From assembly GCA_003218535.1 (NCBI GenBank), contig QHNV01000081.1, positions 1-33,664 on the forward strand: 33,664 nucleotides of DNA, read 5' to 3'. Under the pieces are notes generated by a model. The model was not told the origin of the DNA, did no database searches, and saw only the letters and a list, made by a program, of their open reading frames with translations. Both the position numbers and the translations under genes were made by a program. Positions within the stretch are counted from its first letter, which is position 1. Each line of letters opens with the position of its first letter. Source of the DNA: Verrucomicrobiota bacterium (GTDB lineage: Bacteria; Verrucomicrobiota; Verrucomicrobiia; Chthoniobacterales; UBA10450). This document shows, in pieces, positions 5,548-33,528 of the stretch.

Positions 5548-7803
5548 TCATAATTTCTGCGCAAATTGTTCGAGTTGGTAGCACTCGATCACGTCGCCGA
5601 CTTCATATTCACCGAAGTCACCTAATTTGATTCCGCATTCCAGCCCGGAACGCACTTCTTTAACGTCTTCCTGGAAACGCCGCAGCGTCGAAATCCCGCC
5701 GTCGTAAACCGGTTGGCGTTTTCTTAGAACGCGAGCACGCGCGGCGCGAGCGATGCGGCCATTGGTCACCAAACAACCGGCGATAATGCCCTTGCTTAGT
5801 TGGAAAATCTGTTTCACCTCCGCATGCCCGATGACTGTTTCGCGGAGCTCCGGCTCAAGTAGCCCGGCCATGGCGTCTTTGATCTGGTCGAGCAATTCGT
5901 AAATAATGCTGTAAAGCTTGATCTGCACCCCTTCGCGTTTTGCGGCTGGGACGGCCATGGCTTCGACCTTCACATTGAAACCGACCACAACCGCCTCCGA
6001 TGCGCTCGCCAGTAGAATGTCCGATTCCGAAATCGGTCCCACGGCAGAATGGATAATTTCCAGATCGACCTTTTTGCTCCCGATCTGTTTCAACGCGCCC
6101 ACGAGCGCTTCAAGCGAACCTTGGGCGTCGCATTTCAAAACAATGCGCAGGACTTTTTTCCCTCCGGCGGTTTCGAGTAGAGTTTCCAGCGTGGCGCGTT
6201 GTGGAACGAGCAGCTTGCTCGCGCGTTTTGCCTCGAGTCGTTCGTCACTTAATGCTTTCGCCGCGCGCTCCGATTCCATGACAAGGAATTCATCACCGGC
6301 ATTCGGGAGGCCGGTAAAGCCAAGCACTCTTACTGGCGTGGAAGGCCCGGCTTCCTTAACCGGTTGGCCGCGATCGTCCAAAAGCGATTTTACTTTGCCG
6401 TTGTAATCGCCACAGATAAACGGATCGCCGATTTGTAATGTTCCCATCTGGACGATCACCGTGGCAGTGGGGCCGCGTCCGGGTTCGACTTGCGCTTCGA
6501 TAACAGTGCCGCGTGGCCTAGCCGTAGGTGAGGCTTTGAGTTCCATCACTTCCGCCTGCAAAGCCATCATCTCGAGCAGGTGATCAATCCCTGTGCCTTG
6601 CGTTGCGGAGACGGGACAAACAATTGTTTCGCCGCCCCAGTCTTCCGGCATTAGACCATGTTCCTGAAGTTGTTTCTTGACCCGGTCAATGTTCGCCCCT
6701 GGAAGATCCATTTTGTTGACGGCGACCATAATCTTCACGTGCGGTGCAGCCTTGGCATGATTAATCGCTTCGACCGTCTGCGGCATAATGCCGTCGTCGG
6801 CTGCAATAACGAGGGCAACAATGTCTGTCACGTTCGCGCCGCGCGCGCGCATTGCCGTAAAAGCCGCGTGCCCGGGCGTATCAATGAAAGTGATTTTTGC
6901 TCCATTATGCTCGACGCTGTACGCGCCGATGTGTTGCGTGATCCCGCCGGCTTCTCCAGCTGCGACGCGGGTCTTGCGAATCACGTCCAGTAAGGTGGTC
7001 TTTCCATGATCGACATGTCCCATGAATGTGATAATCGGCCCGCGCGGCTTAAGTTCTTCTTCCTTTTCAATGACAGGCGGGGGCGGCGCGACGACCGGCT
7101 GTTCCACCTTATGAACGCCAGCACCTTTCTCGCGGCGCTCCTTTTCTAAAACGAATCCGTGATTCTCCGCGATTTTCGCTGCGATATCGGGTTCGATGGT
7201 TTGGTTGATATTTGCAAAAATGTTATGCGCCATCAGCTCGGCGATGAGCTGATGCGGTTTTAAGCCGAGCTCAGTCGCCAACTCCTTAACGACAATGGGC
7301 GGCTTGATGTGAATGACTTTTTGCGGTGGCGCCTCCGCCTCAGCCGCCGCCGTTCCACCATCAGCGGGCGATTTGGGCTCAGCGGCAACCTCTGGCGCTT
7401 TACCCACAGGCGCCGGCTGCGGCGTTGCAGCCGGCATGCCGGGTCCCGGCATCGTGGGTTCTATCTTTGCCTGCGCTGGCGATTCGAGTTTCGGTAGAAG
7501 CTTCGAAATCGGCGGCAGCACTGTGGTCTTTGTTTTTACCTCACCATCTTTCGATTCCTTGTGCGTTTTTGCTTTGTCGATGAGCGAAACGGAAGGCGGG
7601 ACCCTTGCTGGCTTTGGTTTCGGGGAAGGCTTCGGTGCAACTTCGTGTTCCGCTTTCGCAGCCGCAGCAGCCGTGGACGCCGTTTTCTTTTGTGGCTCCG
7701 CCTTTTTAGGCGCCGGCTTTGCCTTCGAGACGGCCAGCTTTCGCGCTATGGCGGGCTTCGCCGGTTTGCGCGTCCCGGTTTTGCTGATCGTCTTGTTTGG
7801 CAT
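5548..7803 (-). CDS. infB: Translation initiation factor IF-2
   Basis: 751 residues. It delivers initiator fMet-tRNA to the 30S subunit and promotes 50S joining with GTP hydrolysis. The first ~160 residues are a low-complexity Lys/Ala/Pro linker, followed by the IF2_N module (about 170-220). The GTPase domain shows G1 GHVDHGKTT (262-270), G3 DTPGH (308-312) and G4 NKMD (363-366). Beta-barrel domains and the C-terminal fMet-tRNA-binding domain ending in [16 protein letters not shown] follow. It lies 31 bases downstream of nusA. Start ATG at 7803 is supported by the typical basic N-terminus. A long open frame on the opposite strand over its Ala/Pro-rich region is a compositional shadow. Confidence 0.97.
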
Positions 7804-7834: not shown

Positions 7835-9115
7835 TTAAGCAGAGCCAGCTTTCAGCGGTTCTTCTTTCCGCGTTACCTCTTCTCGCGGAACGGCGCTGTG
7901 AATTTCCTGCGCTTTCATTTCATCCACGGCCAAAATATCCACAAAGTCCTGCACATCAGCATCGCGCAATCCTTCAAGGTTCGTGAATCCGGATTTTACC
8001 AGGATAAGTGCCTGATCCTCAGTAATTGGCAGCGCGGCGGCGAGCGTTTGCGCGGCTTGCGCAACTTTTTGTTCGACCGCAGCCGTGGCTGAAGTGTCCT
8101 TGCCGATGTTGATCTCCCAACCGGTGAGGCGCGAGGTCAATCGTGCGTTCTGCCCTTTTTTCCCGATGGCGAGAGAAAGCTGGTCTTCGTCAACTGAAAT
8201 CTGGACGCTCTTCTTGTCGGTATCGAACACCAGATTCTTAACCTTGGCGGGTTTGAGCGCTTCCAGGACGTACTCGCGCGGGTCCGAGCTCCACCGGATG
8301 ATATCGACCTTTTCGTTGTTCAATTCGCGTACGATGTTTTTAACGCGTGAGCCGCGCATGCCGACGCATGCGCCGACTGGATCTAGTTTTTCGTTCCCGC
8401 TCCAGACCGCGATTTTCGTGCGATAACCGGCCTCGCGCGCGATTCCGCGAATCTCGACGGTACCGTCGGCGATCTCGCTTACTTCCAACTCAAAGAGACG
8501 GCGCACAAAGTTCGGATGACTGCGCGAAACTATGATTTCTGGACCACGAACGCCGTTCTCGACCGCGACGACGTAAGCGCGGAGCCGATCGCCGACATTG
8601 TAGTCTTCTACCGCCACACGTTCCCGCTGAGGCATGACTGCTTCGAATTTTCCAAGGTCCAGAATTACATCCGAGCGATCAAAGCGCCGAACCGTGCCAC
8701 TTACGATTTCTCCAGCACGATCCTTGAACTCCTCGTAGATCATTTCCTTTTCGACCTGACGAATGCGCTGCATCATTGCCTGTTTGGCGGTCTGTGCTGC
8801 GATGCGCCCAAAATTGCGCGGGGTCACTTCCATCTCGACGGCGTCGCCCACTTTGGCGTCCGCCTTGATCTTGCGCGCTTTGGCGAGCTCGATTTCGTCC
8901 TGCGGATTGCTCACATGATCAACTACGAGCAAATTCGCGAGCGCGCGGATTTCGCCGGTCTTCGGGTTGATGTCGATCCGCAAATCCCGTGATGCGCCCA
9001 CGCTTTTTTTTGAAGCTGAGAGCAGCGCGTTCGACACCGCTTCGAGCAGGATCTCGCGTTTGATTCCGCGCTCCCGCTCCAAGTAATCGAGCATGGCGAT
9101 AAATTCCGCGTTCAT
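7835..9115 (-). CDS. nusA: Transcription termination/antitermination factor NusA
   Basis: 426 residues from ATG at 9115, whose N-terminus MNAEFIAMLDYLERERGIKR is the conserved NusA start; the 16-codon upstream extension is unlikely. Order: RNA-polymerase-binding N domain (about 1-125), S1 domain (about 130-200, GEIVSGTVRRFDRSDVILDLG), then two KH domains including GACVGMRGSRVKNIVRELNNEKVDII and LAIGKKGQNARLTSRLTGWEI. A single helix-hairpin-helix C-terminal region (about 370-410) follows. NusA modulates pausing, rho termination and antitermination. It is the first gene of the operon; rimP, which usually precedes it, is absent here, and the upstream neighbour is divergent. No strong ribosome binding site is seen. 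Confidence 0.96.
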   Translation of the reverse strand: MNAEFIAMLDYLERERGIKREILLEAVSNALLSASKKSVGASRDLRIDINPKTGEIRALANLLVVDHVSNPQDEIELAKARKIKADAKVGDAVEMEVTPRNFGRIAAQTAKQAMMQRIRQVEKEMIYEEFKDRAGEIVSGTVRRFDRSDVILDLGKFEAVMPQRERVAVEDYNVGDRLRAYVVAVENGVRGPEIIVSRSHPNFVRRLFELEVSEIADGTVEIRGIAREAGYRTKIAVWSGNEKLDPVGACVGMRGSRVKNIVRELNNEKVDIIRWSSDPREYVLEALKPAKVKNLVFDTDKKSVQISVDEDQLSLAIGKKGQNARLTSRLTGWEINIGKDTSATAAVEQKVAQAAQTLAAALPITEDQALILVKSGFTNLEGLRDADVQDFVDILAVDEMKAQEIHSAVPREEVTRKEEPLKAGSA

Positions 9116-9142
9116 AAAAACATGTAGCCCGCAGACTAAAAA

Positions 9143-9165
9143 GAGTGGGACGTCAGTTCCCACTC
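9143..9165. repeat. Hairpin GAGTGGGA/TCCCACTC in the nusA leader
   Basis: Perfect 8-bp arms at 9143-9150 and 9158-9165 around a 7-nt loop, 28 bases upstream of the nusA start. The neighbouring TGTAGCCCGC (9123-9132) resembles the ends of other repeats in the window. It could be a leader structure affecting nusA or simply another repeat insertion. Confidence 0.5.
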
Positions 9166-9273
9166 CGTTCAGCGCGCGGACTAGAAAAGTAGTTTAACTC
9201 CGTTCGCCAGATCGTCAAGCTGCGCTTTGGTTTGATTTGACGTTGGAAGCTCAATATCCAACATCCCAGTCTA

Positions 9274-10584
9274 GTGAATTCGCGCGTGCAAGCCCTCTTG
9301 ATGGTGCTCTTCGTGTGGGCGGTAGTTTATCTTCCGGCGCTTGGTTCGCTCGCGATCAAGGGAGAGGAGGGACGGCGGATTTTGCCGGCGATCCGGATGC
9401 TCGAGACCGGCGATTATATTGTTCCCCAAGCCTTTATTACGGTCGCGCGACCAAGCCTCGGCTCGAGCGGGTCGACAATCGCAGCGCTAATTTGGCTAAC
9501 AAATTTCGGCATCATCGAAAAGGGCCGCCTCATCGAGATCGAGGCTCTGTACGTTTCGCTTTTCGCTTTGGCGTTCATCTGTTGGCTCACCTGGTGGGAA
9601 CAAAAGAGATCGCCCTGGCTCATCTGGATCGTGCCTTGGATTTTTCTCGGCTTCGGCTGGCTGGCGAAAGGACCAATTCACCTAATATTTTTCTATAGCA
9701 TTGCCTTGGCTGTGCTTTCGCAAGCTTCGGAATTGCGAAAGCTTTTGAACCTGCCGCATGCTATCGGGTTCATCATCATGATGTTGATCTTCGCGGCATG
9801 GGCGATTCCCTACGTGCAAATCGCCGGTGCTTCGCGTGTTGCCCATGTCTGGAATGCACAACTCTGGCTCATTGCCGCCGACTTCAGACCGCGAGGGTGG
9901 TTACTGAACATCCCGCGTAGTCTTGGTTATTTCCTACCATGGCTTCTTCTTGTGCCACTGATGGGCAGCGCGACATTTTCGTCCGAGCGCAAAACCAAAA
10001 TTACGCGCGCTTTAATTTGGGGAATCGCGGTACCGCTGTTGGTTGTGGATCTAATTCCGGGATGGCTTCCGCGTTACGGCATGCCGTTGCTCGCGCCGAC
10101 AGTTTGGCTGCTTGCCGCAATTCTTAGCGCGGAAAAGTTGAAATGGTCGCGTTGGCTCGGTGGCAGGGTACTCTTGGCAAGCGATCGACAGCGTATTGTC
10201 ATGGCGATTGCAATTTGCACATGCGCGTGTGTTTGCCTTTACGCGTTCGCGATAGTCCCGTTTCTGCAGAAACAGCAAAAAGTAAAGGCGATCGCCGCAC
10301 AAATTGATGCGCTGGTTCCAGCTTCGCAACCGCTTTACGCAGTCGATCCGGACTTTCAGCCCTTTCTTTTCTACATCGGTCGGCGGCTTATCTATGTGAG
10401 CGAAGTTGATGATCTGCCCGGTGAGGCGCGGTACTTTCTCATCCAGACATCGAAGGAACGAGAAGCGGAAACAGCGCGACAATGGCGGCCGACGCAGCCC
10501 ACGGCATTACTGCGAATAAAGGATCATCGGTACCGCAAAACGACACTTTTCTCCGTGGGAACTCCTGAAGGATTGGAGCGCTGA
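9274..10584 (+). CDS. GT39/ArnT-like membrane glycosyltransferase, internally deleted copy
   Basis: 436-residue polytopic membrane protein of the ArnT/PMT-like clan (glycosyl transfer from polyprenyl-phosphate donors), start GTG at 9274 or ATG at 9301. It shares KGEEGRRILPAIRMLETGDYIVPQ with the following gene, then jumps at residue 52/53 directly to a segment that aligns with residue 97 of that gene. It therefore lacks 45 residues containing the NPYFRKPPLVNWL and RLPSAL motifs conserved in these enzymes. Later it retains IEKGRLIEIEALYVS, LAKGP and repeated transmembrane helices. Loss of the first periplasmic-loop motif makes activity doubtful; it may be a non-functional or regulatory duplicate. 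Its stop overlaps the next start (TGATG). Confidence 0.8.
   Translation: MNSRVQALLMVLFVWAVVYLPALGSLAIKGEEGRRILPAIRMLETGDYIVPQAFITVARPSLGSSGSTIAALIWLTNFGIIEKGRLIEIEALYVSLFALAFICWLTWWEQKRSPWLIWIVPWIFLGFGWLAKGPIHLIFFYSIALAVLSQASELRKLLNLPHAIGFIIMMLIFAAWAIPYVQIAGASRVAHVWNAQLWLIAADFRPRGWLLNIPRSLGYFLPWLLLVPLMGSATFSSERKTKITRALIWGIAVPLLVVDLIPGWLPRYGMPLLAPTVWLLAAILSAEKLKWSRWLGGRVLLASDRQRIVMAIAICTCACVCLYAFAIVPFLQKQQKVKAIAAQIDALVPASQPLYAVDPDFQPFLFYIGRRLIYVSEVDDLPGEARYFLIQTSKEREAETARQWRPTQPTALLRIKDHRYRKTTLFSVGTPEGLER
9313..9425. repeat. Gene-conversion tract, copy 1
   Basis: 113 bases identical to 10620-10732 except for one substitution (gag/gaa), while sequences on both sides, and the remainder of the two genes, are strongly diverged. 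The tract ends precisely where the 45-codon deletion in this copy begins. This pattern is expected from recent recombination between the tandem paralogues, or from a local assembly error. Confidence 0.85.
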
Positions 10585-12008
10585 TGTCCCGCATTTCCGC
10601 AGTTCTGATCGTGGTGGCGGTGTGGGCGGTAGTTTATCTTCCGGCGCTTGGTTCGCTCGCGATCAAGGGAGAAGAGGGACGGCGGATTTTGCCGGCGATC
10701 CGGATGCTCGAGACCGGCGATTATATTGTTCCACAGGTAGGAAATAATCCGTATTTCCGGAAGCCGCCGCTGGTGAACTGGCTGGTGGCAGGGTCGTTTA
10801 AAATTTTTGGGGTACGAAATGAATGGACGGCCCGCTTGCCCTCGGCGCTTGCAGTGCTCGCAGTGGCCATCGCGTTTGTGACCATTGCGCGCGCGAGCCT
10901 TGGATCCGGCGGCTCGACCGTCGCGGCACTCATTTGGCTGACCAATGTTGGAATGATAGAGAAGGGCCGGTTGATCGAGATTGAAGCGCTCTACGTTTCG
11001 CTTTCCGGCCTTGCCATCATTTTTTGGTTGAGTTTTTGGAATCAGAAGAAATCCCAGTGGCTTGTTTGGATTCCGCCCGCGATATTTCTAGGACTTGGCA
11101 TGCTCGCGAAGGGCCCAACACTTCTCGTATTTTTTTACGGCATCGTGCTGGCTGTTCTTTGGCGGACCAAGAATTGGCAGCTGCTATTTCAGCCGGCGCA
11201 TTTTGTCGCGCTCGGAATCATGTTCGCCATTCTTGCGGCATGGGCTGTTCCATTTGCCAAGACCACGACGATGGAGCTGGCGATGCACAAATGGTCAATT
11301 CAATTCAGCGAACGTCTCAAGGGCACCAACTTCCAATTTTTAAACTGGATCCAAAATGTCCCTCGCGCCTTGGTGTATTTTCTGCCGTGGCTCACCCTGG
11401 TTCCGTTCATACGTTTTTCAAAATTTCACGACGATATGCGGCGACAACTTGCGCACGGCCTAGCCTGGGGAACGCTGGTACCGTTCCTTGCCGTAAATCT
11501 TGTGCCTGGGGCGGTCGCGCGCTATAGCATGCCATCTCTGGTTCCGGCTTCATGGCTGCTGGCAATGACCTTTGCCGGCGGCGCCTTGCGTTGGCCTGGC
11601 AAACTGCATGTGGGAAACGAACGCGCATGGGCGAAGGTGGCGACTGCTTTTGTTGGACTTGCGCTCATCGTCGGCGGAATCGGCTACCCACTTGCAGCGC
11701 TCGCCTTGCATAACAGGCAGCAGGTAACAAGAGTCGCGGCGACAGTTAACGGCATCGTGCCAGCCAGCGAGAAACTGTATGTGGTAAATCCGCACTATCA
11801 GCCCGTTCTTTTCTACGTGAAGGCACCGCTTGAATACGTACACAGCATCACAGACCTTCCGGTTGAGACACATTATTTTCTCGTTCGCGCGGAAAAGAGG
11901 AAGGAAGCAGCGACCACGGAAAAGTGGAATCCCCGCCGGACGCATGAACTTGCTCGCGTCAGGGATTACAGCAAACGCGAGATGATCCTTTTCGAGGTTA
12001 GTTCTTAA
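10584..12008 (+). CDS. GT39/ArnT-like membrane glycosyltransferase
   Basis: 474-residue integral membrane protein resembling ArnT/GT39 glycosyltransferases, which transfer sugars from undecaprenyl-phosphate carriers on the periplasmic side, for example to lipid A or other glycans; the actual substrate is unknown. Signatures are the first-loop acidic segment KGEEGRRILPAIRMLETGDYIVP (with E30, E31), NPYFRKPPLVNWL (about 55-67), RLPSALAVLAV (about 84-94), IEKGRLIEIEALY and LAKGP. About ten hydrophobic helices follow, then a soluble C-terminal part reading ...PLEYVHSITDLPVETHYFLV. The ATG at 10584 overlaps the preceding stop by one base. This copy looks intact. Confidence 0.85.
   Translation: MSRISAVLIVVAVWAVVYLPALGSLAIKGEEGRRILPAIRMLETGDYIVPQVGNNPYFRKPPLVNWLVAGSFKIFGVRNEWTARLPSALAVLAVAIAFVTIARASLGSGGSTVAALIWLTNVGMIEKGRLIEIEALYVSLSGLAIIFWLSFWNQKKSQWLVWIPPAIFLGLGMLAKGPTLLVFFYGIVLAVLWRTKNWQLLFQPAHFVALGIMFAILAAWAVPFAKTTTMELAMHKWSIQFSERLKGTNFQFLNWIQNVPRALVYFLPWLTLVPFIRFSKFHDDMRRQLAHGLAWGTLVPFLAVNLVPGAVARYSMPSLVPASWLLAMTFAGGALRWPGKLHVGNERAWAKVATAFVGLALIVGGIGYPLAALALHNRQQVTRVAATVNGIVPASEKLYVVNPHYQPVLFYVKAPLEYVHSITDLPVETHYFLVRAEKRKEAATTEKWNPRRTHELARVRDYSKREMILFEVSS
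10620..10732. repeat. Gene-conversion tract, copy 2
   Basis: Partner of 9313-9425: 112 of 113 bases identical. In this copy the coding sequence continues uninterrupted beyond the tract. Confidence 0.85.
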
Positions 12009-12015
12009 AGGAAGA

Positions 12016-12054
12016 TTGACAGGCTAACAAATCGGAATTGGTTAGCATGCTAAC
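12016..12054 (+). promoter_or_regulatory. MarR-type promoter/operator region
   Basis: TTGACA at 12016-12021 is a good -35 box. A perfect 14-bp palindrome GTTAGCATGCTAAC lies at 12041-12054, and an additional GCTAAC half site at 12023-12028 forms a second inverted pair with GTTAGC. The palindrome overlaps the expected -10 region and is 14 bases upstream of the marR start, so it is a likely autoregulatory operator for the marR-adaptor-pump operon. Repressor binding is inferred. Confidence 0.7.
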
Positions 12055-12068
12055 TAATTTCGGTTCAC

Positions 12069-12626
12069 ATGACCTCGGACTGGGAAACAATTGGCCCGTT
12101 GCTCCACGGCACTGCTCGTGCATGGCGGCAGAAACTAGACGAGCGCCTCAGACCCATGGGCTTGAGCCAGGCAAAATGGCGCACGCTTCTGCACCTGTCT
12201 CTTGCTCGAGACGCGCTTACTCAGGCGGAGATTGCAGCGCGGCTGGGGATTGAAGAGCCTACCGTTGTATCGCTGTTGCGCCGACTGGAGAAAGAAGATT
12301 GGATCACGCGCACAAATTCTCCGCATGATCGCCGCTGCAAAATGGTGCTGTTGGGCCGGCGCGCGCAGCAGGTAATCCCACAGATCAACGCAACAGCCGA
12401 GAAACTTCGGCACGAACTATTGGCTGGTATCCCAAAGTCGGATCTCCAAACGTGCATGGGAGTGTTGGCGCGCATTCGGGGACGGGCGGAGAAAACCGAG
12501 CGACGCCAGTCCTTCACTCGCCAGTCTGTGGCTCGCGCTTTCGTCGAGCACAACGGCCAGACCAAACAGGGATATTCGATTCCGAGAAAAAGCGCAATTT
12601 CGCGGCGCAACGGAGGGTTAAAATGA
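12069..12626 (+). CDS. MarR-family transcriptional regulator
   Basis: 185-residue winged-helix regulator. N-terminal dimerisation helix (about 5-30), winged HTH (about 45-110) with LTQAEIAARLGIEEPTVVSLLRRLEKEDWI as recognition region and the wing motif TNSPHDRRCKMVLL containing the conserved D-R. A basic, Ser/Arg-rich C-terminal tail (about 145-185) is longer than in typical MarR proteins. It is first in an operon with an RND adaptor and pump, overlapping the adaptor start by four bases (ATGA). It probably represses this efflux operon through the palindrome at 12041 and is released by a toxic ligand; the ligand is unknown. Confidence 0.9.
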   Translation: MTSDWETIGPLLHGTARAWRQKLDERLRPMGLSQAKWRTLLHLSLARDALTQAEIAARLGIEEPTVVSLLRRLEKEDWITRTNSPHDRRCKMVLLGRRAQQVIPQINATAEKLRHELLAGIPKSDLQTCMGVLARIRGRAEKTERRQSFTRQSVARAFVEHNGQTKQGYSIPRKSAISRRNGGLK

Positions 12627-13858
12627 AACTTAACACGCCGGTAAGTAGTCCAAAGACATTAGACCGCCGCACTTCCCAGCGCCCGCAGTTTCAAATGAAA
12701 CGTACCCGTACAGCCAATCAGAGGGTTCCGAAGTGGGCGTACTTGCTTTTTATCATCTTGGCAGCGTTTGTCTGTTACCGGATCTTTCAACACAGGGCAA
12801 GCGAGGTTAAAGCCGCTCAGCCGCCGGGTCGTCCTGTGACTGCAGCCAAAGCCATCACAAAGGATGTGCCGATTTACCTCGATGAGATCGGCACATGTGC
12901 AGCGTACGAGACCGTGCAGGTGCAGGCGCAGGTGAGCGGCAAGATCATCGAGCGCCTTTTTCAAGACGGCTCGGACGTGAAGAAAGAAGATCCCCTTTTT
13001 ACAATCGATCCGCGTCCGTATCAGGCCGCTCTCGACCAGGCAAAGGCGCAAGCCGCACTAGACCAGGTGACGCTGAAGCGACAAGAAGATCTTCGCGCGA
13101 GAAAGGTCATAGCGCAGCAAGACTACGACACTGCTGTGGCGAATGCACAGAAGTCTCAGGCAGCGGCGGAGGCTGCCCAGGTGAACCTCGATTATTGCTA
13201 CATCAAGTCGCCCATTAACGGACGAGTCGGTCTCCGCAATGTTGACGTTGGCAACTTGGTTGGACCCTCGACTCCGCCACTCGTCACAATCCAGGGTTTG
13301 GATCCGATTTACACCGACTTCACCGTGGCCGAGAACGATCTGCCGCTTGTGCGAAAATATCTCGGCGGCCCAAACGTGAAAGTGGAAACATACCTGGCAG
13401 ACGGGTCGATCACCCCGCGCATGGGCGATTTGTATTTTATCGATAACGCAGTGCAGCCCGGCTCGGGAACGGTGAAAGTCCGCGGAGTCACGGCGAATGC
13501 TGATCGCGCGCTGTGGCCGTCGGAATTTGTCCTTGTCCGTTTCATTCTGGACACGCTCAAGAACGCCACGCTTGTGCCGTCGCAGGCCGTCCAGGTTAGC
13601 CAGAGTGGGCCGTTTGTTTTTGTGGTAAAGCCTGACAACACTGTTGAACTTCGGGCGGTGAAACCAGGTCAACGCCAGGACGGCGATCTTGTCGTGATTG
13701 AGAGCGGCGTGAAACCCGGCGAGACTGTTGTTGTCACCGGCCAGCTCGCGCTTTCGCCAGGGGCGAAAGTGGCGCCGCAACCGTATGCTGCTGAGACGTC
13801 GGGCACGCTTCAGTCCCGACAGATCGGGACTTCAAAAAGCCCAACCTCGTATGAATGA
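12623..13858 (+). CDS. RND efflux periplasmic adaptor subunit (AcrA/MdtA-like, HlyD family)
   Basis: 411 residues from ATG at 12623, preceded by GGAGGG with suitable spacing and overlapping the marR stop; the longer upstream frame is rejected. A single N-terminal transmembrane anchor (about 38-55) replaces a lipoprotein signal. Then come the beta-barrel/lipoyl segment (VQVQAQVSGKIIERLFQDGSDVKKEDPLFTID), a coiled-coil hairpin (about 130-180), the second lipoyl half (YIKSPINGRVGLRNVDVGNLV) and membrane-proximal beta domains. It bridges the inner-membrane pump to an outer-membrane channel. Its 3' end holds an 8-bp hairpin, and the pump start codon lies inside its last codons. Confidence 0.94.
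   Translation: MKLNTPVSSPKTLDRRTSQRPQFQMKRTRTANQRVPKWAYLLFIILAAFVCYRIFQHRASEVKAAQPPGRPVTAAKAITKDVPIYLDEIGTCAAYETVQVQAQVSGKIIERLFQDGSDVKKEDPLFTIDPRPYQAALDQAKAQAALDQVTLKRQEDLRARKVIAQQDYDTAVANAQKSQAAAEAAQVNLDYCYIKSPINGRVGLRNVDVGNLVGPSTPPLVTIQGLDPIYTDFTVAENDLPLVRKYLGGPNVKVETYLADGSITPRMGDLYFIDNAVQPGSGTVKVRGVTANADRALWPSEFVLVRFILDTLKNATLVPSQAVQVSQSGPFVFVVKPDNTVELRAVKPGQRQDGDLVVIESGVKPGETVVVTGQLALSPGAKVAPQPYAAETSGTLQSRQIGTSKSPTSYE
13812..13831. repeat. Hairpin AGTCCCGA/TCGGGACT in adaptor 3' end
   Basis: Perfect 8-bp arms (13812-13819 and 13824-13831) with a CAGA loop inside the last codons of the adaptor gene, about 20 bases before the pump start. It encodes the odd C-terminal SRQIGTSK stretch and looks like an inserted small palindrome. 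It may modulate translation of the pump. Confidence 0.5.
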
Positions 13859-16800
13859 CGCGGAGGAACATGACGGCGAACGCGAAGTAAGAGATCGGGA
13901 TCGCGTTAGGTCAAGATCGTTCACCGAAGATCAGCCCAAGCCGACGGCAAAGTTAATTCAAGTCGAAGGTTCGGGGCTCTCCGGGCCGTTTATTCGGCGG
14001 CCCGTGATGACCGTGCTGCTGACGCTCTCCGTGATTGTCGCCGGTCTCGCGACTTACGGAAAACTTGCCGTCAACGATCTGCCCGCAGTGGATTATCCGG
14101 TTATTCAAGTTACCTGCTCGTATCCCGGCGCAGACCCCACGACGATGGCCAACAACATCGCGACGCCGTTGGAGAAGCAATTCTTGCAAATCCCCGGTCT
14201 GGACATCATCACCAGCAATAGCACGCAGAGCAACACGTCGCTGACGTTGCAGTTCGTGCTCAGCAAAAGCATCACCGACGCCGCAACCGACGTGCAGGCT
14301 GCGATCCAGCGTGCCACGGGGAAATTGCCAATCGATCTGCCGAGTCCGCCAACCTTTACAAAAACCAACCCGAACGACCAGGCCGTTTACTTGTTAGGCC
14401 TGATGTCAGACACGCTGACCGACTGGGACCTGTACAAGTACGCGTCCACGGTTGTGGCGCAGCGCATCAACATTCTGCCGGGTGTTTCGCAGGTGAACAT
14501 TTACGGAGTGCAGGGCGCGGTTCGAATCAAGGCCGATCCATCGGCGCTGGCTGTGCGCGGTCTGACGATGGATGATCTGGCCAGCGCGATCAAAGCGGGC
14601 ACAGTCTATTCCGGTGCAGGGCAATTCGATGGTGCGCATCGCACCTTTGTCCTTCAGCCCAATGGACAGATCGATAAGGCTGAGGGATATCGCAATCTGA
14701 TCGTGGCGCGCAACCCGAACGGTTTGCCGGTTTACTTGCGCGACGTCGCTGATGTGTACCAGGGCGTTCAGGACGAACGCATCTCGCGCTTTTTCTGGAT
14801 GCGCGGTTTTAAACCGCCCGGCTCGGTGGTCGTGCTTGCGGTTTCACGGCAGGCGGGCGCAAACGCAGTGGAAGTGGCTAACTCCGTCAAAGCACTGTTC
14901 CCTGAGCTGCGTGCAAGCTTGCCGGGCTCGATCAAATTCACGCCGGTGTTCGACCGTTCGCAAACGATCGTCAATTCCGCTGACGAAGTGAAATGGACGC
15001 TGATGATCGCGTTCGTGCTGGTAGTGATGGTTATCTACGTGTTTCTCGGTCGCGCTACCGACACGCTGATTCCGGCTGTGGCGTTGCCAATGTCGTTGCT
15101 GCTCACCGTGGCCGTGATGTACATGCTCAATTTCTCCATCAACAATCTGACTTTGATGGCGCTGACCCTGGCCATTGGTTTCCTTGTCGATGACGCCATT
15201 GTGTTTTTGGAAAACGTGGTGCGCCGTGCCGAGCATGGTGAGTCGATCTTGCAAGCAACCTTTAACAGTGCCGGCGAAATTTCCTTCACGATCCTGTCGA
15301 TGACGCTGTCACTCGCTGCGGTTTTCATCCCGTTGGTTTTCATCCCTGGACTGCTTGGCCGCATCTTCCGCGAGTTTTCCGTCACGATCATCGTGGCGAT
15401 TCTCGCCTCAGGGCTTGTGTCGCTCACGCTTACCCCGTTGATGTGCGCGCGCATCTTGGGTGAGCGCAGGGCCGGCCACAAACGCGCCTGGATGGAACGG
15501 CACACCAGTAACTTCATCAAACGCGTCATCGCTGGCTACGGCCGGGTCCTCGACAAGTTTCTCGATCGCGCATGGCTCACAGTGCCGATCCTGATCATCT
15601 GCATTCTTGGTCTCTGGTTCTTCTTCAGCCATCTGCCGTTCACGTTATTGCCGCCGGGCGACAGTGGTTTCATTCGCGGCGTGTTTATCGCGCAGGAAGG
15701 TTCGTCGCCGGCGCAGATGCGCGCTTATCAAACGGAAGTCAATAAGAAACTCCAAGCGGATCCAGCCGTTGGGCAATTTTTCACGCTCGCTGGTTTCTCG
15801 TCGCGCAGCGCATTGTCGCAGGGGCTGCTGTTTCTTTTTCTGAAGCCGCGCGGTGAACGTCCGCCTATCGATCAAATCATTTTGCGACTGCAAAAATCGC
15901 TTGGCTCAATTCCTGGCATGACAGCAGTGTTAACGCCCAGCCCGGTGCTGCAAATCAGTGTTGGTGCCACGAGCCAGACCCAGGGGCAATACGCGTACAC
16001 TATTAGCGGCATCGTGCCGGGTGATGTTTACGCCGTGGCCGACCAACTGCTGAAAAAACTGAAACAGTTTAAAGGCTTCCTCAGTGTCCGCTCCGATTAC
16101 TACCACGATACGCCAAATCTCCGGATCGACATGAATCGGGACCGCGCTGCCACCTACGGCGTTTCTACTTCAGCAATCCAAAGCCTGTTACGCAACGCTT
16201 ACTCGCAAAACTACGTCTATCTCATCAAGGAACCGGACGACCAATACCAGGTTATTCTCGAAGTCAAAGACAAGGAGCGGGCGCACCCTGGGGACTTGGA
16301 CGATCTCTACGTCCGCAGCAGCACCAGTGGGAATTTCAGCGCGAGCGGCTCAGGCGGAGGAACCATAGCGACGACCACAGGTAATATGACGAATCTCGTT
16401 CCGCTGCGTGTTGTAACATCAACCAAAGAAGTTATTGGTCCGCAAGCTGTGAATCATTTGAATCAGTTCACAAGCGTTACGTTCAATTTCAACCTGTTGC
16501 CAAACGTCGCCATCGGCGATGCGACCAAGTTTATCGAGGACGCCTTCGCGCAAATCCACCCGCACTATCCGACCGTGCAGGGCATCTTCCAGGGGGAAAC
16601 ACTCGTGTTCCAGCAATTGTTCCGCTCTCTGCCTTTGCTGTTACTCGCTGCCGTTTTCATCATGTATGTGATCCTGGGAATCCTTTACGAGAGCTATGTG
16701 CACCCGTTCACGGTTTTGTTTCCAGCAATTGTGCCCGCCGTAGTCGGCGGACTGGCTACATTGTATCTCTTCCACTCAGTGCTTTCGCTTTATAGCGTCA

Positions 16801-17216
16801 TCGGCCTTTTCCTCTTGTTAGGCATCGTGAAGAAGAACGGAATCATGGTGGTCGATTTTGCTTTGCAACGAATCGACGAAGGCTGGGACCTGCGCTCGGC
16901 GATTCACGAAGCGAGCATGGAACGGTTTCGTCCCATTATGATGACAACGCTTGCCGCGCTTATGGGCGCGGTGCCGATTGCGCTCGGGTTCGGCCAGGAC
17001 GCCGCATCGCGTCGCCCGCTCGGGCTCGTCATCGTTGGCGGCCTCATTTTCTCGCAACTAATAACGCTCTTTGTGACTCCAGTCATTTATCTCTGGCTTG
17101 AATGGTTTCAGGAGCACGTGCTCGACAAGGTACCGTTCCTTCGAAGCGCTCACTATCATCACGAGGACGAAGCTGGGAGAGGACAGTTGCGACCCGAGCC
17201 AGCGGGCGCCCGTTGA
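13851..17216 (+). CDS. RND-family multidrug efflux permease (HAE-1, AcrB/MdtB-like)
   Basis: 1121 residues from ATG at 13851 (overlapping the adaptor stop), a little longer than AcrB because of a charged N-terminal extension (residues 1-40). TM1 follows SGPFIRRPVMTVLLTLSVIVAG. The proton-relay Asp pair is present as FLVDDAIVF (D447, D448) in TM4. The porter and docking domains are recognisable by sequences such as YPGADPTTMANNIATPLE and the second-half FQGETLVFQQLFRSLPLLLL. A Ser/Gly-rich insert (GNFSASGSGGG) lies near residue 830. It exports drugs or toxic compounds using the proton gradient. No outer-membrane channel gene follows, so a TolC-like protein must come from elsewhere. Confidence 0.96.
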   Translation: MNDAEEHDGEREVRDRDRVRSRSFTEDQPKPTAKLIQVEGSGLSGPFIRRPVMTVLLTLSVIVAGLATYGKLAVNDLPAVDYPVIQVTCSYPGADPTTMANNIATPLEKQFLQIPGLDIITSNSTQSNTSLTLQFVLSKSITDAATDVQAAIQRATGKLPIDLPSPPTFTKTNPNDQAVYLLGLMSDTLTDWDLYKYASTVVAQRINILPGVSQVNIYGVQGAVRIKADPSALAVRGLTMDDLASAIKAGTVYSGAGQFDGAHRTFVLQPNGQIDKAEGYRNLIVARNPNGLPVYLRDVADVYQGVQDERISRFFWMRGFKPPGSVVVLAVSRQAGANAVEVANSVKALFPELRASLPGSIKFTPVFDRSQTIVNSADEVKWTLMIAFVLVVMVIYVFLGRATDTLIPAVALPMSLLLTVAVMYMLNFSINNLTLMALTLAIGFLVDDAIVFLENVVRRAEHGESILQATFNSAGEISFTILSMTLSLAAVFIPLVFIPGLLGRIFREFSVTIIVAILASGLVSLTLTPLMCARILGERRAGHKRAWMERHTSNFIKRVIAGYGRVLDKFLDRAWLTVPILIICILGLWFFFSHLPFTLLPPGDSGFIRGVFIAQEGSSPAQMRAYQTEVNKKLQADPAVGQFFTLAGFSSRSALSQGLLFLFLKPRGERPPIDQIILRLQKSLGSIPGMTAVLTPSPVLQISVGATSQTQGQYAYTISGIVPGDVYAVADQLLKKLKQFKGFLSVRSDYYHDTPNLRIDMNRDRAATYGVSTSAIQSLLRNAYSQNYVYLIKEPDDQYQVILEVKDKERAHPGDLDDLYVRSSTSGNFSASGSGGGTIATTTGNMTNLVPLRVVTSTKEVIGPQAVNHLNQFTSVTFNFNLLPNVAIGDATKFIEDAFAQIHPHYPTVQGIFQGETLVFQQLFRSLPLLLLAAVFIMYVILGILYESYVHPFTVLFPAIVPAVVGGLATLYLFHSVLSLYSVIGLFLLLGIVKKNGIMVVDFALQRIDEGWDLRSAIHEASMERFRPIMMTTLAALMGAVPIALGFGQDAASRRPLGLVIVGGLIFSQLITLFVTPVIYLWLEWFQEHVLDKVPFLRSAHYHHEDEAGRGQLRPEPAGAR

Positions 17217-18535: not shown

Positions 18536-19702
18536 TCAGCGCGCTCGGCTTAGCACTCGGGTGGCGACCGGTTTGATAAAATTGCCGGGGAGCCGCTTCT
18601 CGTCGTCCGGGACTGAGCCGGCGGCGTAGGCGAGGGCTTCTTCTTCTGGCGCGAGAAATGGTTTGAACCGGTTCTTGTCGATGGCCTTCATGAAGGCTTC
18701 ATGGGCGGAGACTATTCCCTTTTCCAGCGATGCCCAGATGACATCATCCATGAATTGCATTCCCTGAGCTCTTCCGGAAACGATCACGTCCTGGAGCTTT
18801 TGGGTCGCGCCTTCGCGGATGATTGCGGCGACGGCAGCGTTGGCGATCAGAATTTCATTGACGGCGATGCGCCCCGGCCGATCCACTCTCTTTAAGAGCA
18901 ATTGTGCAACGACGCCACGAAGCGAGTTTGCAAGCATGGCACGCGCCTGCGACTGCCGTTCGGCAGGGAAAGCATCTATCATGCGATCCACTGTCTTGCG
19001 AGCATTGTTCGTGTGCAGCGTGCCGATCACGAGAAGGCCTGTCTCGGCCGCGGTCAGGGCGAGTGAGATCGTTTCCAAGTCCCGCATCTCGCCTATCAGC
19101 ACGATATCGGTATCCTCACGCAGCGCCGCCTTGAGGGCAGCGGGAAACGTAATCGAATCGCTCGGCACTTCCCTCTGTGTAATGATGCTCCGCTTATTAT
19201 CGTGGACGAACTCGATCGGTTCCTCAATCGTCACGACGTGCTTGGAAAAGTTTTGATTAATGAAGTCGATTAGCGCGGCTTGCGTGGTGGTTTTACCGGA
19301 GCCCGTTGGACCGGTGACGAGAACAAGCCCGCCGCGTAAATGCGCAAACTCTTTTACTACTACCGGGATGCCTAGCTCCTCGAGACTCGCAATCTTCGTG
19401 GGGATCAACCGAAAGGCCGCAGCGTAACCATTCGACTGTTTATAGTAATTGGTGCGAAATCGAGAGTGCTCATCCATTGCATAGGCAAAATCGAGATCGC
19501 CCCGTTGCTCGAAGAGGTCCCAGTTATGGGAGCCACAAATTTCACTCATCATTTGTGCAGCTTCCTCGTGCGAAATCGGCTCAGCTCGGATAGGCATGAT
19601 GTCTCCATGCTTCCGTATTTTCGGCGGTTGCCTCTCTCCGATATGCAAATCGGACGCCCCCTGCTGGACGACGATGTCAAGAAATTGATCCAGGTAAGCC
19701 AT
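18536..19702 (-). CDS. PilT/VirB11-family ATPase (type IV pilus retraction-like), copy A
   Basis: 388-residue secretion/pilus ATPase. N-terminal PAS-like domain (about 1-110, containing GASDLHIGERQPPKIRKHG), Walker A GPTGSGKTT (131-139), Asp box REDTDIVLIGEMRD, His box GLLVIGTLHTNNA and an arginine/core C-terminal domain (MQFMDDVIWASLEKGIVSAHEA). An extra C-terminal tail of about 45 residues (EEEALAYAAGSVPDDEKRL...) is more like PilU-type paralogues. It probably depolymerises type IV pili or drives twitching. It follows the second PilT gene by 14 bases, same strand, so the two form an operon. No pilin or pilus assembly genes are in the window. Confidence 0.92.
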   Translation of the reverse strand: MAYLDQFLDIVVQQGASDLHIGERQPPKIRKHGDIMPIRAEPISHEEAAQMMSEICGSHNWDLFEQRGDLDFAYAMDEHSRFRTNYYKQSNGYAAAFRLIPTKIASLEELGIPVVVKEFAHLRGGLVLVTGPTGSGKTTTQAALIDFINQNFSKHVVTIEEPIEFVHDNKRSIITQREVPSDSITFPAALKAALREDTDIVLIGEMRDLETISLALTAAETGLLVIGTLHTNNARKTVDRMIDAFPAERQSQARAMLANSLRGVVAQLLLKRVDRPGRIAVNEILIANAAVAAIIREGATQKLQDVIVSGRAQGMQFMDDVIWASLEKGIVSAHEAFMKAIDKNRFKPFLAPEEEALAYAAGSVPDDEKRLPGNFIKPVATRVLSRAR

Positions 19703-19716
19703 TTTCAGGACCGCGG

Positions 19717-20820
19717 TTACATCTTTAAGTGTTGCCGTACGACCAGTTTTTGGTCGGCGCGCGTGTACGCTTCTTCTGCGCTAATCAGCCCGGTCTCATA
19801 GAGATCAATTAATGCATCATCCATCAAACGCATTCCCTGTTTTTTGCCGGTCTGAATTATGCCGGGCAGCATGTAGGTTTTTGCCTCGCGAATCACGTTG
19901 GCCACAGCCGGCGTATTGGTGAGAATCTCCAGCGCGAGCACCCGACCGGTCCCATCCTTTTTTGGTATCAGTTGGTGGCTCATCACGCCGCGCAGCGATT
20001 CAGCCACCATCACCCGGATGTGTTCCTGTTGATCTGGCGGAAACACGTCCAATAATCGATCAAGTGTGCGCGAAGCGTTACTGGTGTGCAGTGTTGCCAA
20101 AACAAGATGCCCGGTTTCGGCCGCAGTGATGGCGAGTGAAATTGTTTCTAAGTCGCGCATCTCGCCCACCATGATCACGTCTGGATCTTCCCGGAGCGCA
20201 GCACGCAGTGCCGTGGCGAAAGATTCTGTGTGTGTAAATACCTCGCGTTGGCTGACGTGGCAGTTTTTCGAAGCGATGACGTATTCGATCGGGTCTTCCA
20301 GCGTGATAATGTGATCGCGGCGCTCCGTATTGATTTGCGCGATCATCGCTGCAAGCGTGGTCGATTTGCCGGTTCCTACCGAGCCTGTTGCTAAAACCAG
20401 CCCGTTCTGATAGCGGGTGAGTATTTTGAGGTGCTGAGGCAGCCCCAGTTCGTCCATCGTCCGCACCTTTGAGTTGATGACCCGAAAGACAATTTCCATC
20501 CCGAGTCGCTGCCGGACCACACTTGTCCGAAATCGGGCGAACTTGTTTTCATAAGCAAAGTCGGAATCGCCGCGGGTATCGAGCTCCTGCTTGTACACTT
20601 TCGGCATGAAGTCTTCTGCCAAAGCTACCGTCTGCTGACTGGTCAGGCGCGGCGCATCCGGCCACATTGGCTGCAAGGTTCCATTTACCCGCCAGATCGG
20701 TGGCGCGGCCACACCCAGATGAACGTCCGACGCGTCCGCCTTTTGCCCCATCTCAAGATAGTCATCCACGTGAGGGAGCGGATGCGATGCGACCGGAGGA
20801 GCTGAAATGTTCAGGGTCAT
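19717..20820 (-). CDS. pilT: PilT-family ATPase (type IV pilus retraction-like), copy B
   Basis: 367 residues from ATG at 20820; a TTG at 20862 would add 14 residues and cannot be excluded because neither start has a clear Shine-Dalgarno. N-terminal domain with KADASDVHLGVAAPPIWRVNG (about 27-47), Walker A GSVGTGKS (146-153; note Val-Gly where Thr-Gly is usual), Asp box REDPDVIMVGEMRD, His box LVLATLHTSNA and C-terminal MRLMDDALIDLYETGLISAEEAY. It is more canonical in length than copy A and is the first gene of the pair. PilT hexamers power pilus retraction at the inner membrane. The symbol is given for the family rather than proven orthology. Confidence 0.92.
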   Translation of the reverse strand: MTLNISAPPVASHPLPHVDDYLEMGQKADASDVHLGVAAPPIWRVNGTLQPMWPDAPRLTSQQTVALAEDFMPKVYKQELDTRGDSDFAYENKFARFRTSVVRQRLGMEIVFRVINSKVRTMDELGLPQHLKILTRYQNGLVLATGSVGTGKSTTLAAMIAQINTERRDHIITLEDPIEYVIASKNCHVSQREVFTHTESFATALRAALREDPDVIMVGEMRDLETISLAITAAETGHLVLATLHTSNASRTLDRLLDVFPPDQQEHIRVMVAESLRGVMSHQLIPKKDGTGRVLALEILTNTPAVANVIREAKTYMLPGIIQTGKKQGMRLMDDALIDLYETGLISAEEAYTRADQKLVVRQHLKM

Positions 20821-20878
20821 AGGGTTGCCGAGATCATTATGTAATTCAAACTGCCGGCGCAAATCCTAAAACGCCCCA

Positions 20879-30559: not shown

Positions 30560-32233
30560 ATGACAGACAAAACTGCAACGCCCTCGGATTTTATTCGCGA
30601 CATTGTCGCGGAAGACATTCGCACCGGGAAGTACGACAAGATCGTGACTCGCTTTCCGCCTGAGCCTAACGGCTACCTGCATATCGGTCACGCAAAATCG
30701 ATTTGCCTCAACTTCGGGATCGCGCGCGAGTTCGGCGGGATTTGCAACATTCGCATGGACGATACCAACCCGATAAAGGAGGAAGCGGAATATGTCGACT
30801 CAATCATGACTGACGTACGTTGGCTCGTCGATGGTTGGGCGGACAAACATGTCGGTGGCGCACCATTTTACGCATCGGATTATTTTGACCGTTTCTACGA
30901 CTACGCGGTCGATCTTATACGCAAAGGCAAGGCTTACGTTTGCGAGATGACTCCCGAGGAAACGGACGCATATCGCCGGCTTGGGAAAGCGAGTGGCTTT
31001 CGCGATCGTTCTGTCGAAGAAAATCTCGATCTCTTTGCGCGAATGAAGGCAGGCGAGTTTCCGGACGGCGCGCGCACGTTGCGGGCAAAGATCGACGTAA
31101 ATGCCGCGAACATCTGGCTGCGTGACCCGGTGTTGTATCGCATCCGGCACGCATCGCATCATCGCACCGGCGACAAATGGTGCATTTATCCGATGTACGA
31201 TTGGGCGCATACGCTTAGCGACTACGTTGAGGGCATCACGCACTCGGTTTGCACGCTGGAGTTCGAAGTGCACCGGCCGCTCTATGATTGGATTCTTGAC
31301 GCGCTGGAATTGCCGGATCCGCGCCCGCATCAATATGAATTTGCGCGGCTCAATCTCACTTATTCCGTCATGAGCAAGCGCAAACTGATTCAGTTGGTGA
31401 ACGAAAAACTTGTTAATGGCTGGGACGATCCGCGGATGCTTACTATTTCCGGATTGCGGCGACGCGGGGTGACTGCGAGCGCTCTACGCGCGTTCGCCTA
31501 CAACATTGGCATCACGAAATATCCGAGCATGACTGAGATGGCTGTGCTGGAACACACCATGCGCGACGAATTGAATCGTGCTGCCACCCGCCGGCTTGCT
31601 GTCCTGCGGCCGATCAAAGTTGTGCTGACGAATTATCCCCAGGATAAAATCGAAAAACTCGACGCAATCAATAATCAGGAGGATCCAAATGCTGGAACGC
31701 GCAAGATTCCGTTCAGTCGCGAGCTTTACATCGAGAATGACGATTTCATGGAGACGCCGCCACCGAAATATTTTCGACTCCGGTCCGGTGGCGAAGTGCG
31801 GCTCAAATACGCTTACATCATCAAGTGCGATGAAGTCGTGAAGGATGAGGCTGGCAACGTGACTGAGCTTCGCTGCACTGTCGATCTGGACAGCAAATCA
31901 GGCGGACCGACTGCTGGTCGCAAAATAAAAGGCACGATACATTGGATAAGCGCGGCGAAGGCGATCGATGCGGAGGTCCGATTGTATGACCGGCTGTTCA
32001 GCGTTCCTGAACCCGACTCAGGCGGCGATTTCAAATCGTTCATTAATCCAAATTCGCTCCAAGTGGTTACCGCAAAATGCGAACCCTCGCTTGCAGGCGC
32101 GCGTCCCGAAGAGCGCTACCAATTCGAGCGTCTCGGGTATTTCGCGCTCGATCCGGATTCGACTCCGCAAAAACAAATCTGGAATCGCACGATTACGCTG
32201 CGGGACACCTGGGCCAAAGAAGCGAAAAGGTAG
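30560..32233 (+). CDS. glnS: Glutamine--tRNA ligase
   Basis: 557 residues, the usual length of bacterial GlnRS. It attaches glutamine to tRNA-Gln. Class I motifs: HIGH at 41-44 in PPEPNGYLHIGHAKS and the KMSKS equivalent VMSKRKL (about residue 272). The GlnRS-type features NIRMDDTNPIKEEAEYV, YPMYDWAHTLSDYVEGITHSVCTLEF and RPHQYEFARLNL separate it from GluRS, and the C-terminal two beta-barrel anticodon domains are complete (KIPFSRELYIENDDF, YIIKCDEVVKD, GTIHWISA). Start ATG at 30560. Its stop TAG is within the GGTAGCGC arm of the repeat at 32230. It converges on gltX. Confidence 0.97.
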   Translation: MTDKTATPSDFIRDIVAEDIRTGKYDKIVTRFPPEPNGYLHIGHAKSICLNFGIAREFGGICNIRMDDTNPIKEEAEYVDSIMTDVRWLVDGWADKHVGGAPFYASDYFDRFYDYAVDLIRKGKAYVCEMTPEETDAYRRLGKASGFRDRSVEENLDLFARMKAGEFPDGARTLRAKIDVNAANIWLRDPVLYRIRHASHHRTGDKWCIYPMYDWAHTLSDYVEGITHSVCTLEFEVHRPLYDWILDALELPDPRPHQYEFARLNLTYSVMSKRKLIQLVNEKLVNGWDDPRMLTISGLRRRGVTASALRAFAYNIGITKYPSMTEMAVLEHTMRDELNRAATRRLAVLRPIKVVLTNYPQDKIEKLDAINNQEDPNAGTRKIPFSRELYIENDDFMETPPPKYFRLRSGGEVRLKYAYIIKCDEVVKDEAGNVTELRCTVDLDSKSGGPTAGRKIKGTIHWISAAKAIDAEVRLYDRLFSVPEPDSGGDFKSFINPNSLQVVTAKCEPSLAGARPEERYQFERLGYFALDPDSTPQKQIWNRTITLRDTWAKEAKR

Positions 32234-32344: not shown

Positions 32345-32632
32345 TTAGAATCTCGTTAGCGCGCGATCAATGCGCGCGAGGACTTTGTCTTTTCCAAGAA
32401 CTTCGAGCAAGTGATACAGACTCGGTCCCACGTTGCTGCCAGTCACGGCGAGGCGCGTGGGATGAACGATCGCGCCGACCTTCACGCCTAGATTTGCGGC
32501 TGCGCTTTTCACTGTCGCTTCAATTTCAGCAGCATCGAATTTCTTTAGAGGACTTAGCGCGTCGCGAACAGCTTCGAGTCTTGGCTTGTTCTCAGGGGTG
32601 AAATGTTTTGCTAACTCGACTTCAACCTCGCG
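32345..32632 (-). pseudogene. gltX: C-terminal remnant of gltX (anticodon-binding domain), out of frame
   Basis: In a different frame from the main gltX ORF, the minus strand encodes about 95 residues reading EVEVELAKHFTPENKPRLEAV... then FDAAEIEATVKSAAANLGVKVGAIVHPTRLAVTG and SLYHLLEVLGKDKVLARIDRAL, ending in TAA at 32345. This is the C-terminal part of the GluRS anticodon-binding domain. By comparison with typical GluRS, roughly 40 residues that should lie between ...FYDLAVAR and this segment are missing, and the frame changes at the junction near 32630. It cannot be translated with the upstream part without a frameshift. Confidence 0.75.
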
Positions 32633-33528
32633 ACAGCAAGGTCGTAAAACTCGGCATCACTGAGCTCGCGCGCATATTCGCCATTCAACCAGTGGAGTTT
32701 GTCAGGGTCGAATGTCGCCGAGCTGCGTCCGATATTCTTGAGATCAAAAATCCGGATGACTTCGTCTACGTCGATCTTCTCCCGATTGTCTTTTGGTGAC
32801 CAACCGAGCAGACAGAGGTAATTGCGGACGGCCGCCGGGAGATAACCGCGACGGATGTAATACTCCACCCGCGCGCCTTCGTCGCGTTTGCTCATCTTCG
32901 ATCCGTCGCGGTTTAGGATGAGCGGGATGTGCGCGTAATGCGGCGGCGTCGCGCCGAGCGCGCGAAAAATTTCGATGTGCTTCGGTGTGTTGGAGAGATG
33001 ATCTTCGCCCCGGATCACGTGGGAGATTTTCATTTCCAGATCGTCGATCACATTCACAAAATGAAAAATCCACGAACCATCCGGCCGGCGAATGGTCATG
33101 TCGGGGTGCGTAGCCGGATTGCTCAGATCGAAGTCGATTTTGCCGCACACGACGTCGTCTACAATGACGTGCTCGTGCGGTGAGCGAAATCGCAGCGCAC
33201 CCTGGTCCTCGAAAATGTGACCGGCGTCCTGAAGTTTTTTCAGGTAACGCTCGTAAAGTTCTGTGCGCTCGCTCTGCAGGTAGGGTCCGAATTCGCCGCC
33301 GGCATGCGGGCCTTCGTCCCAGTTCAGGCCCAGCCATTGTAGCCCTTCGTAAATGGCGGTCATCGCTTCTTCGGTGTTTCGCTTGATATCCGTATCTTCG
33401 ATGCGCAGCACGAATTTCCCGCCGTGATGTCGCGCAAACAGCCAATTGAACAGCGCAGTGCGCGCCCCGCCTATATGTAGGTAGCCAGTAGGCGAGGGGG
33501 CGAAACGGACGCGGATGTCAGGATTCAT
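32611..33528 (-). CDS. gltX: Glutamate--tRNA ligase, truncated by frameshift/deletion
   Basis: 305-residue ORF containing the catalytic domain: PSPTGYLHIGGARTALFNWL (HIGH equivalent at 18-21), RIEDTD, HVIRGEDHLSNTPKH, and KMSKR at 211-215. The stem-contact region FDPDKLHWLNGEYARELSD is present, after which a TAG stops the frame. Normal GluRS proteins are about 460-500 residues; the anticodon-binding C-terminus continues in another frame (32345-32632) with internal sequence missing. The segment between HIGH and KMSKS is also short, with no Cys-rich zinc-like insert. As gltX is essential, either another copy exists or the break is a sequence/assembly error. Start is ATG at 33528. Confidence 0.85.
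   Translation of the reverse strand: MNPDIRVRFAPSPTGYLHIGGARTALFNWLFARHHGGKFVLRIEDTDIKRNTEEAMTAIYEGLQWLGLNWDEGPHAGGEFGPYLQSERTELYERYLKKLQDAGHIFEDQGALRFRSPHEHVIVDDVVCGKIDFDLSNPATHPDMTIRRPDGSWIFHFVNVIDDLEMKISHVIRGEDHLSNTPKHIEIFRALGATPPHYAHIPLILNRDGSKMSKRDEGARVEYYIRRGYLPAAVRNYLCLLGWSPKDNREKIDVDEVIRIFDLKNIGRSSATFDPDKLHWLNGEYARELSDAEFYDLAVARLKSS

Follow-up and report, generated by a model that had tools for sequence, protein, structure and literature searches.

Exchangeable gene bodies and a hybrid glycosyltransferase pair at a conserved locus beside nusA in uncultured soil Verrucomicrobia

ArnT is the best studied relative of the membrane glycosyltransferases of the PMT_2/GT39 type, and the lysine of its YFEKP motif is required for activity (PMC5377068). 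Integration with one homologous side and an illegitimate second join, accompanied by duplication of a short segment of the recipient, is known from transformation and conjugation (PMC3240628, PMC3784515), and the same idea of integration has been applied to Rhs and T6SS loci with a constant 5' and a variable 3' part (PMC5361080). Here we describe a tandem of glycosyltransferase (GT) genes, copy 1 and copy 2 (Table 1), in a window of 33,664 nucleotides, contig C32 of a 2.69-Mb draft genome (269 contigs) with MAGs of soil Verrucomicrobia as close relatives. By Pfam, both copies are PMT_2-type membrane glycosyltransferases. Copy 2 shares with the PMT_2/GT39 enzymes the matches to PF13231 (64.1 bits, cut-off 26.1) and PF02366 and, in the first periplasmic loop, the YFxKP motif (motif as in PMC5377068), whereas copy 1 lacks this motif and its PF13231 match, at 27.3 bits, is barely over the cut-off. 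Copy 2 was considered as an ArnT and rejected, reaching 53.6 bits with the equivalog model against a cut-off of 567 bits; copy 1 gave no match to this model, and a sequence search of solved structures returned no significant match.

Table 1. Features of the GT locus and its two flanking genes (positions in the window)
Feature	Position	Strand	Basis
nusA, conserved left neighbour	7835..9163	-	Pfam NusA_N and KH; synteny in relatives
Native intergenic region upstream of copy 1	9164..9273	+	Gap-free alignment with the sequence preceding the only such gene of G017
Copy 1, hybrid gene, 436 aa, without 45 conserved codons	9274..10584	+	Sequence
Copy 1 head, codons 1-13, native type, GTG start	9274..9312	+	36/42 nt identical to G017
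113-bp tract, copy 1 member	9313..9425	+	Lone mismatch to 10620-10732 at 9366
Join of tract and foreign body; site of the 45 missing codons	9426..9429	+	Sequence alignment
1,307-bp unit between corresponding tract ends	9426..10732	+	Removal restores a single 475-codon gene
Copy 1 body, B type, stop at 10582-10584	9430..10584	+	Sister of G073 (100/98)
Stop/start overlap TGATG of copies 1 and 2, GGAG upstream	10582..10586	+	Sequence
Copy 2 head, codons 1-12, non-native type	10584..10619	+	Nearest heads G081, G079, G080: 32, 31, 30 of 42 nt
113-bp tract, copy 2 member	10620..10732	+	Base-by-base comparison
Copy 2 body, A type, native	10733..12008	+	Sister of G017; 83% nt identity over body
Copy 2 codons missing in copy 1, residues 52-96, with YFRKPPL and RLPSAL	10737..10871	+	17 positions near-invariant across 64 relatives
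marR-type regulator, conserved right neighbour	12069..12626	+	Pfam MarR; synteny in relatives

The gene order nusA, GT, marR, hlyD, acrB is conserved among the 34 congeners searched wherever a contig shows it, and in nearly all of them the slot between nusA and marR holds a single GT gene. The exceptions are G015, where the slot gives a broken reading, G030, whose contig starts inside the GT gene, and G024, which has several GT copies spread over different contigs. In the wider family there are two more GT tandems, one in G081 (an A-like followed by a B-like gene) and one in G062. The 5' third of the slot gene is nearly constant and the 3' two-thirds, here called the body, come in exchangeable types, two of which we name A and B.

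Elsewhere in the window other features were observed. Directly upstream of marR (12030-12065) lies a palindrome, GGTTAGCATGCTAACTAATT, retained in most relatives read (e.g., G017, G009, G010 and contig C349 of G024), which is likely an operator of the MarR regulator. The HlyD/AcrB-type pump (12452-17216) has an AcrB that is 96% identical to those of G008 and G025, and a translation factor gene (5548-7803) is just 80% identical to that of G008; the pump genes too seem to have been exchanged between lineages. An adjacent pair of type II/IV secretion ATPase genes (T2SSE) occupies 18536-20862, a pairing also found in several relatives. A full-length glutamyl/glutaminyl-tRNA synthetase-like gene (30560-32233) is accompanied on the opposite strand by a short class I synthetase-like gene of 305 aa (32611-33528), possibly a GluQ-type enzyme.

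The initial annotation had drawn attention to a stretch of near-identity between the two copies, and a base-by-base check bears this out, with 112 of 113 bases matching in runs of 53 and 59 bp. Its borders are sharp: on the left the tract starts directly after four mismatches (9309-9312), and on the right there are mismatches at 9426 and 9429. The flanks are diverged as had been described, with a third-codon identity of the copies that drops to 0.35-0.45 in most windows downstream of the tract. At 75% identity, one mismatch or none over 113 bases has a probability of 3e-13, and even at 88% it is no more than 9e-6. Over the same stretch the best matches of other relatives reach 97-99 of 111, and the tandem pairs of G081 and G062 are merely 0.6-0.79 identical. 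The relatives compared included no homologues whose two copies are alike to the same degree over their whole length, a pattern that would have spoken against this picture. Since the tract differs at one position only, the tract and the rearrangement are, by this measure, recent.

On either side of the tract, each gene is a composite. Copy 1 has a native upstream region and head joined to a body of another type, the latter being 63-67% identical in amino acids to B-type genes and 44% to copy 2; GC content does not set this body apart (0.536; copy 2, 0.542; nusA, 0.552). Copy 2 is full length, has its own ATG and a native body, and its head matches that of G017 at only 25 of 42 nt, the closest heads belonging to g14 genomes. 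At the join in copy 1, the codons CCC CAA (four to six bases) match neither A nor known B sequences and differ from the CCA CAG of copy 2, and no microhomology could be recognised. Given the TGATG overlap with GGAG upstream, copy 2 may be translated by coupling to copy 1, in which case an open frame in copy 1 would be favoured as well.

The composite structure has its counterpart in the relatives, where exchange of the body at this locus is well supported by alignments and trees: amino acid identity between A and B genes is ~0.8 over codons 14-140 and 0.2-0.55 beyond. In trees of the body (the region past codon 97, with the same result when repeated on codons 141-474), copy 2 belongs to the A group, where it pairs with G017. 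Copy 1 belongs to a B group, which also contains G001, G020, G023, contig C349 of G024 and G030, and pairs there with G073 from another genus; a grouping of both copies with G017 was rejected (p-AU 3e-40). The nusA tree places the window with G017 (100/100), the nearest species to this genome, and rejects window plus G073 (p 2e-5). In this tree the B-body genomes are scattered among A-body ones, and a B clade was rejected (p 3e-83). Specifically, G001 and G020 have B bodies, yet their nusA lies among those of the A-body genomes G013, G010 and G033, and an A placement of their bodies was rejected (p 2e-5). The body type has changed at least three times within the genus. Comparison of G001 with G013, G033 and G010 gave identities of 95-97% for nusA, 57, 57 and 57% for GT, 73, 72 and 74% for marR, and 75-91% for hlyD; judged by these values, the break is local and confined to GT and marR. 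Fused genes are also found, with a 5' part of A type and a 3' part of B type (L063 and L065, from G079 and G080). They correspond to the first gene of G081 up to about codon 255 and to its second gene past about codon 260 (L091, L092), as would be expected of a tandem pair collapsed by recombination. The second gene of G081 is spread over two contigs, which share a 23-base overlap within it. L080 of G035 (also L036) is a further mosaic in which codons 91-180 are B-like, with ~0.9 amino acid identity to G001, and the later part is unlike B.

The gap in copy 1 is in frame and corresponds to residues 52-96 of copy 2; the remainder is open over 436 codons, with neither frame breaks nor internal stop codons as signs of a pseudogene; on both points alignment and translation agree with the earlier reading. 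All relatives with a readable 5' part retain these 45 codons, and no second copy with the same deletion was seen in a family-wide search of 83 genomes. The lost residues had been described as conserved, and they are present in every full-length relative; those that are near-invariant include Y57, K60, P61, P62 and L63. The motif YFxKPPL occurs in copy 2 and in nearly all relatives and is absent from copy 1. By shared motif and position, K60 of copy 2 would be the counterpart of the lysine of the ArnT motif. For the two copies, structure prediction had only three to four usable sequences and gave pLDDT values of 39 and 50; in the low-confidence model of copy 2, helices span residues 62-75 and 80-106. 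Copy 1 should thus have lost most of a predicted membrane helix, with the topology of the remainder disturbed. Because YFxKPPL, other near-invariant residues and most of this helix are gone, copy 1 is probably inactive. Elsewhere in its body, a pair of compensating frameshifts near 9855-9905 (QLWLIAADF in place of QFSGRLAGEGF) was considered and rejected, since the variant is common to G073 and the second G081 gene. In place of the QLW..xDF shared by these three (9850-9905; L087, L092), every other type carries QFSGRLxG, a loop that is conserved and whose arginine is invariant; the substrate may have changed in the QLW..xDF sub-group.

Removal of 9426-10732 by script leaves a 475-codon frame of the same length as the G017 gene, to which it aligns without gaps (identical nucleotides: head 38/45, tract 99/114, body 1054/1266). 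Because the flanks are colinear with the G017 gene once the 1,307-bp unit is taken out, we propose, at a probability of roughly 0.6, that the pair arose by a single insertion into a native A-type gene that duplicated the 113-bp tract, so that one event would explain both the tract and the deletion. The slot from nusA to marR would ordinarily carry one PMT_2/GT39-type gene, with codons ~14-140 nearly constant and the 3' part swapped between lineages, and a fragment from a relative, in which a foreign start segment comes after a B-type body, would recently have entered it. One side would have been joined by homology within the constant 5' part and the left side illegitimately, directly after the native tract, this join being what appears as the 45-codon "deletion"; the 113-bp repeats would be two copies of the native tract. 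Copy 1 would then owe its promoter region, start and tract to the native gene and continue into a B-type body minus 45 codons, and copy 2 would be a full-length gene with native body and foreign start. Catalysis would fall to copy 2, which probably takes its sugar from a polyprenyl-phosphate carrier and transfers it on the outer side of the inner membrane. Copy 1 is most likely catalytically dead and would be no more than a leader that lies upstream of copy 2 and is coupled to it in translation. A scan for promoters and terminators gave matches at the level of shuffled sequence, and a donor search of genome contigs yielded only two real relatives (L036, L037) and no tandem. Several observations count against the insertion. 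Among the sampled relatives none has the donor order of B body then A gene, and the G081 tandem is in the reverse order; the copy 1 body has no close donor (best 67% amino acid identity over the full body); and the join bases fit neither type.

Such an insertion would share with homology-facilitated illegitimate recombination and transformation-made tandem duplications the combination of one homologous and one non-homologous join and a short duplication of the recipient, although those are known from laboratory selection and here the event is read from sequence only, at a junction where microhomology is not recognisable. The GT locus also has the conserved 5' part, exchanged 3' part and topological conflict with a flanking gene by which Rhs-like loci are recognised, and it shares with them the conserved 5' seam and, on the insertion reading, the displaced older body kept downstream. 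It differs from them in that the displaced body is full length with its own start (downstream remnants lacking a start, as in Rhs-like loci, were not found at the locus), in that the product is a sugar transferase and not a toxin, and in the clean replacement found in most genomes.

With gene conversion of tandem paralogues the pair has in common a near-identical, sharply bounded tract between diverged copies, and this had been the original interpretation. The sharp tract stands, while conversion as the whole story is not supported, and the copies are more than a standing tandem of simple paralogues: the congeners have single genes, the bodies belong to different lineages, the upstream region and start of copy 1 are native, and a gap-free 475-codon gene is left without the 1,307 bp. 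The tract can instead be a duplicated target, a reading that empty-site colinearity and the lack of any congener with a standing tandem favour on sequence grounds. A fuller version, in which conversion copied the tract within a standing tandem of B-type and A-type genes and a separate in-frame deletion removed 45 codons at its end, we regard as rather unlikely. Full-length A/B-like tandems do exist (G081 and G062), the codons CCC CAA could be remnants of the B parent, and conversion could have ended inside the B gene, given that the join bases are unlike A or known B. However, two events are needed that happen to end no more than 6 bp apart, the tandem ancestor is seen in no congener, and the native head of copy 1 and foreign head of copy 2 are left unexplained. 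An artefact is less probable still. Strain variants could have been joined by the assembler through the shared tract, since this is a draft in 269 contigs, the exact runs of the tract are within k-mer range, and co-occurring variants are likely given the variation in body type. Yet a misjoin mediated by the tract swaps only sequence outside both tracts, and the upstream region and head of copy 1 and the body of copy 2 all match the lineage of the window. The two odd joins, at 9426 and at the TGATG overlap, are internal to the unit and have no repeat in common. Unless gap filling introduced an error, they must therefore come from real reads, and at least one strain would carry the hybrid molecule.

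The initial annotation had also suggested that copy 1 might be a degenerate paralogue with a changed role. Its degenerate nature as an enzyme is probable, as argued above. A changed role, e.g., as a regulatory or partner subunit, is extremely unlikely, and we see no positive evidence for it, nor anything that would indicate adaptation after the loss. The open frame and a body that evolves no faster than that of G073 could be read in its favour. However, the rearrangement is young, so the openness of copy 1 says little: in simulations, 0.45-0.9% neutral change leaves the frame open in about 13-61%, and the overlap with copy 2 itself favours an open frame, which is therefore weak evidence for function. 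Faster evolution of the copy 1 body relative to its intact, full-length sister was not seen (end branches of 0.29 for copy 1 and 0.29 for G073), and equal lengths are as expected of a recent loss; copy 1 has still lost 17 near-invariant residues together with most of a predicted helix. We also consider very improbable a standing system that diversifies a surface-modifying transferase, in which tandem body cassettes under one promoter recombine through the constant 5' tract. If it were true, a cell would have either the hybrid-plus-native operon or, after excision of the 1,307 bp, the native gene alone, and its surface glycans would change with the switch, e.g., as a defence against phages.

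The finding is real and recent and is explicable by known kinds of recombination. Where a short near-identical tract borders a deletion, the two can be traces of a single failed insertion instead of conversion. Of greater interest is the exchange across the locus, through which an odd gene pair becomes a well-delimited example of genes being exchanged in modules, at a single conserved slot next to nusA in soil Verrucomicrobia that are uncultured. The rear portion of a gene for membrane sugar transfer is replaced together with the adjoining marR while the neighbours stay unmoved, and both tandem intermediates (the window and G081) and fused products (G079 and G080) are visible.
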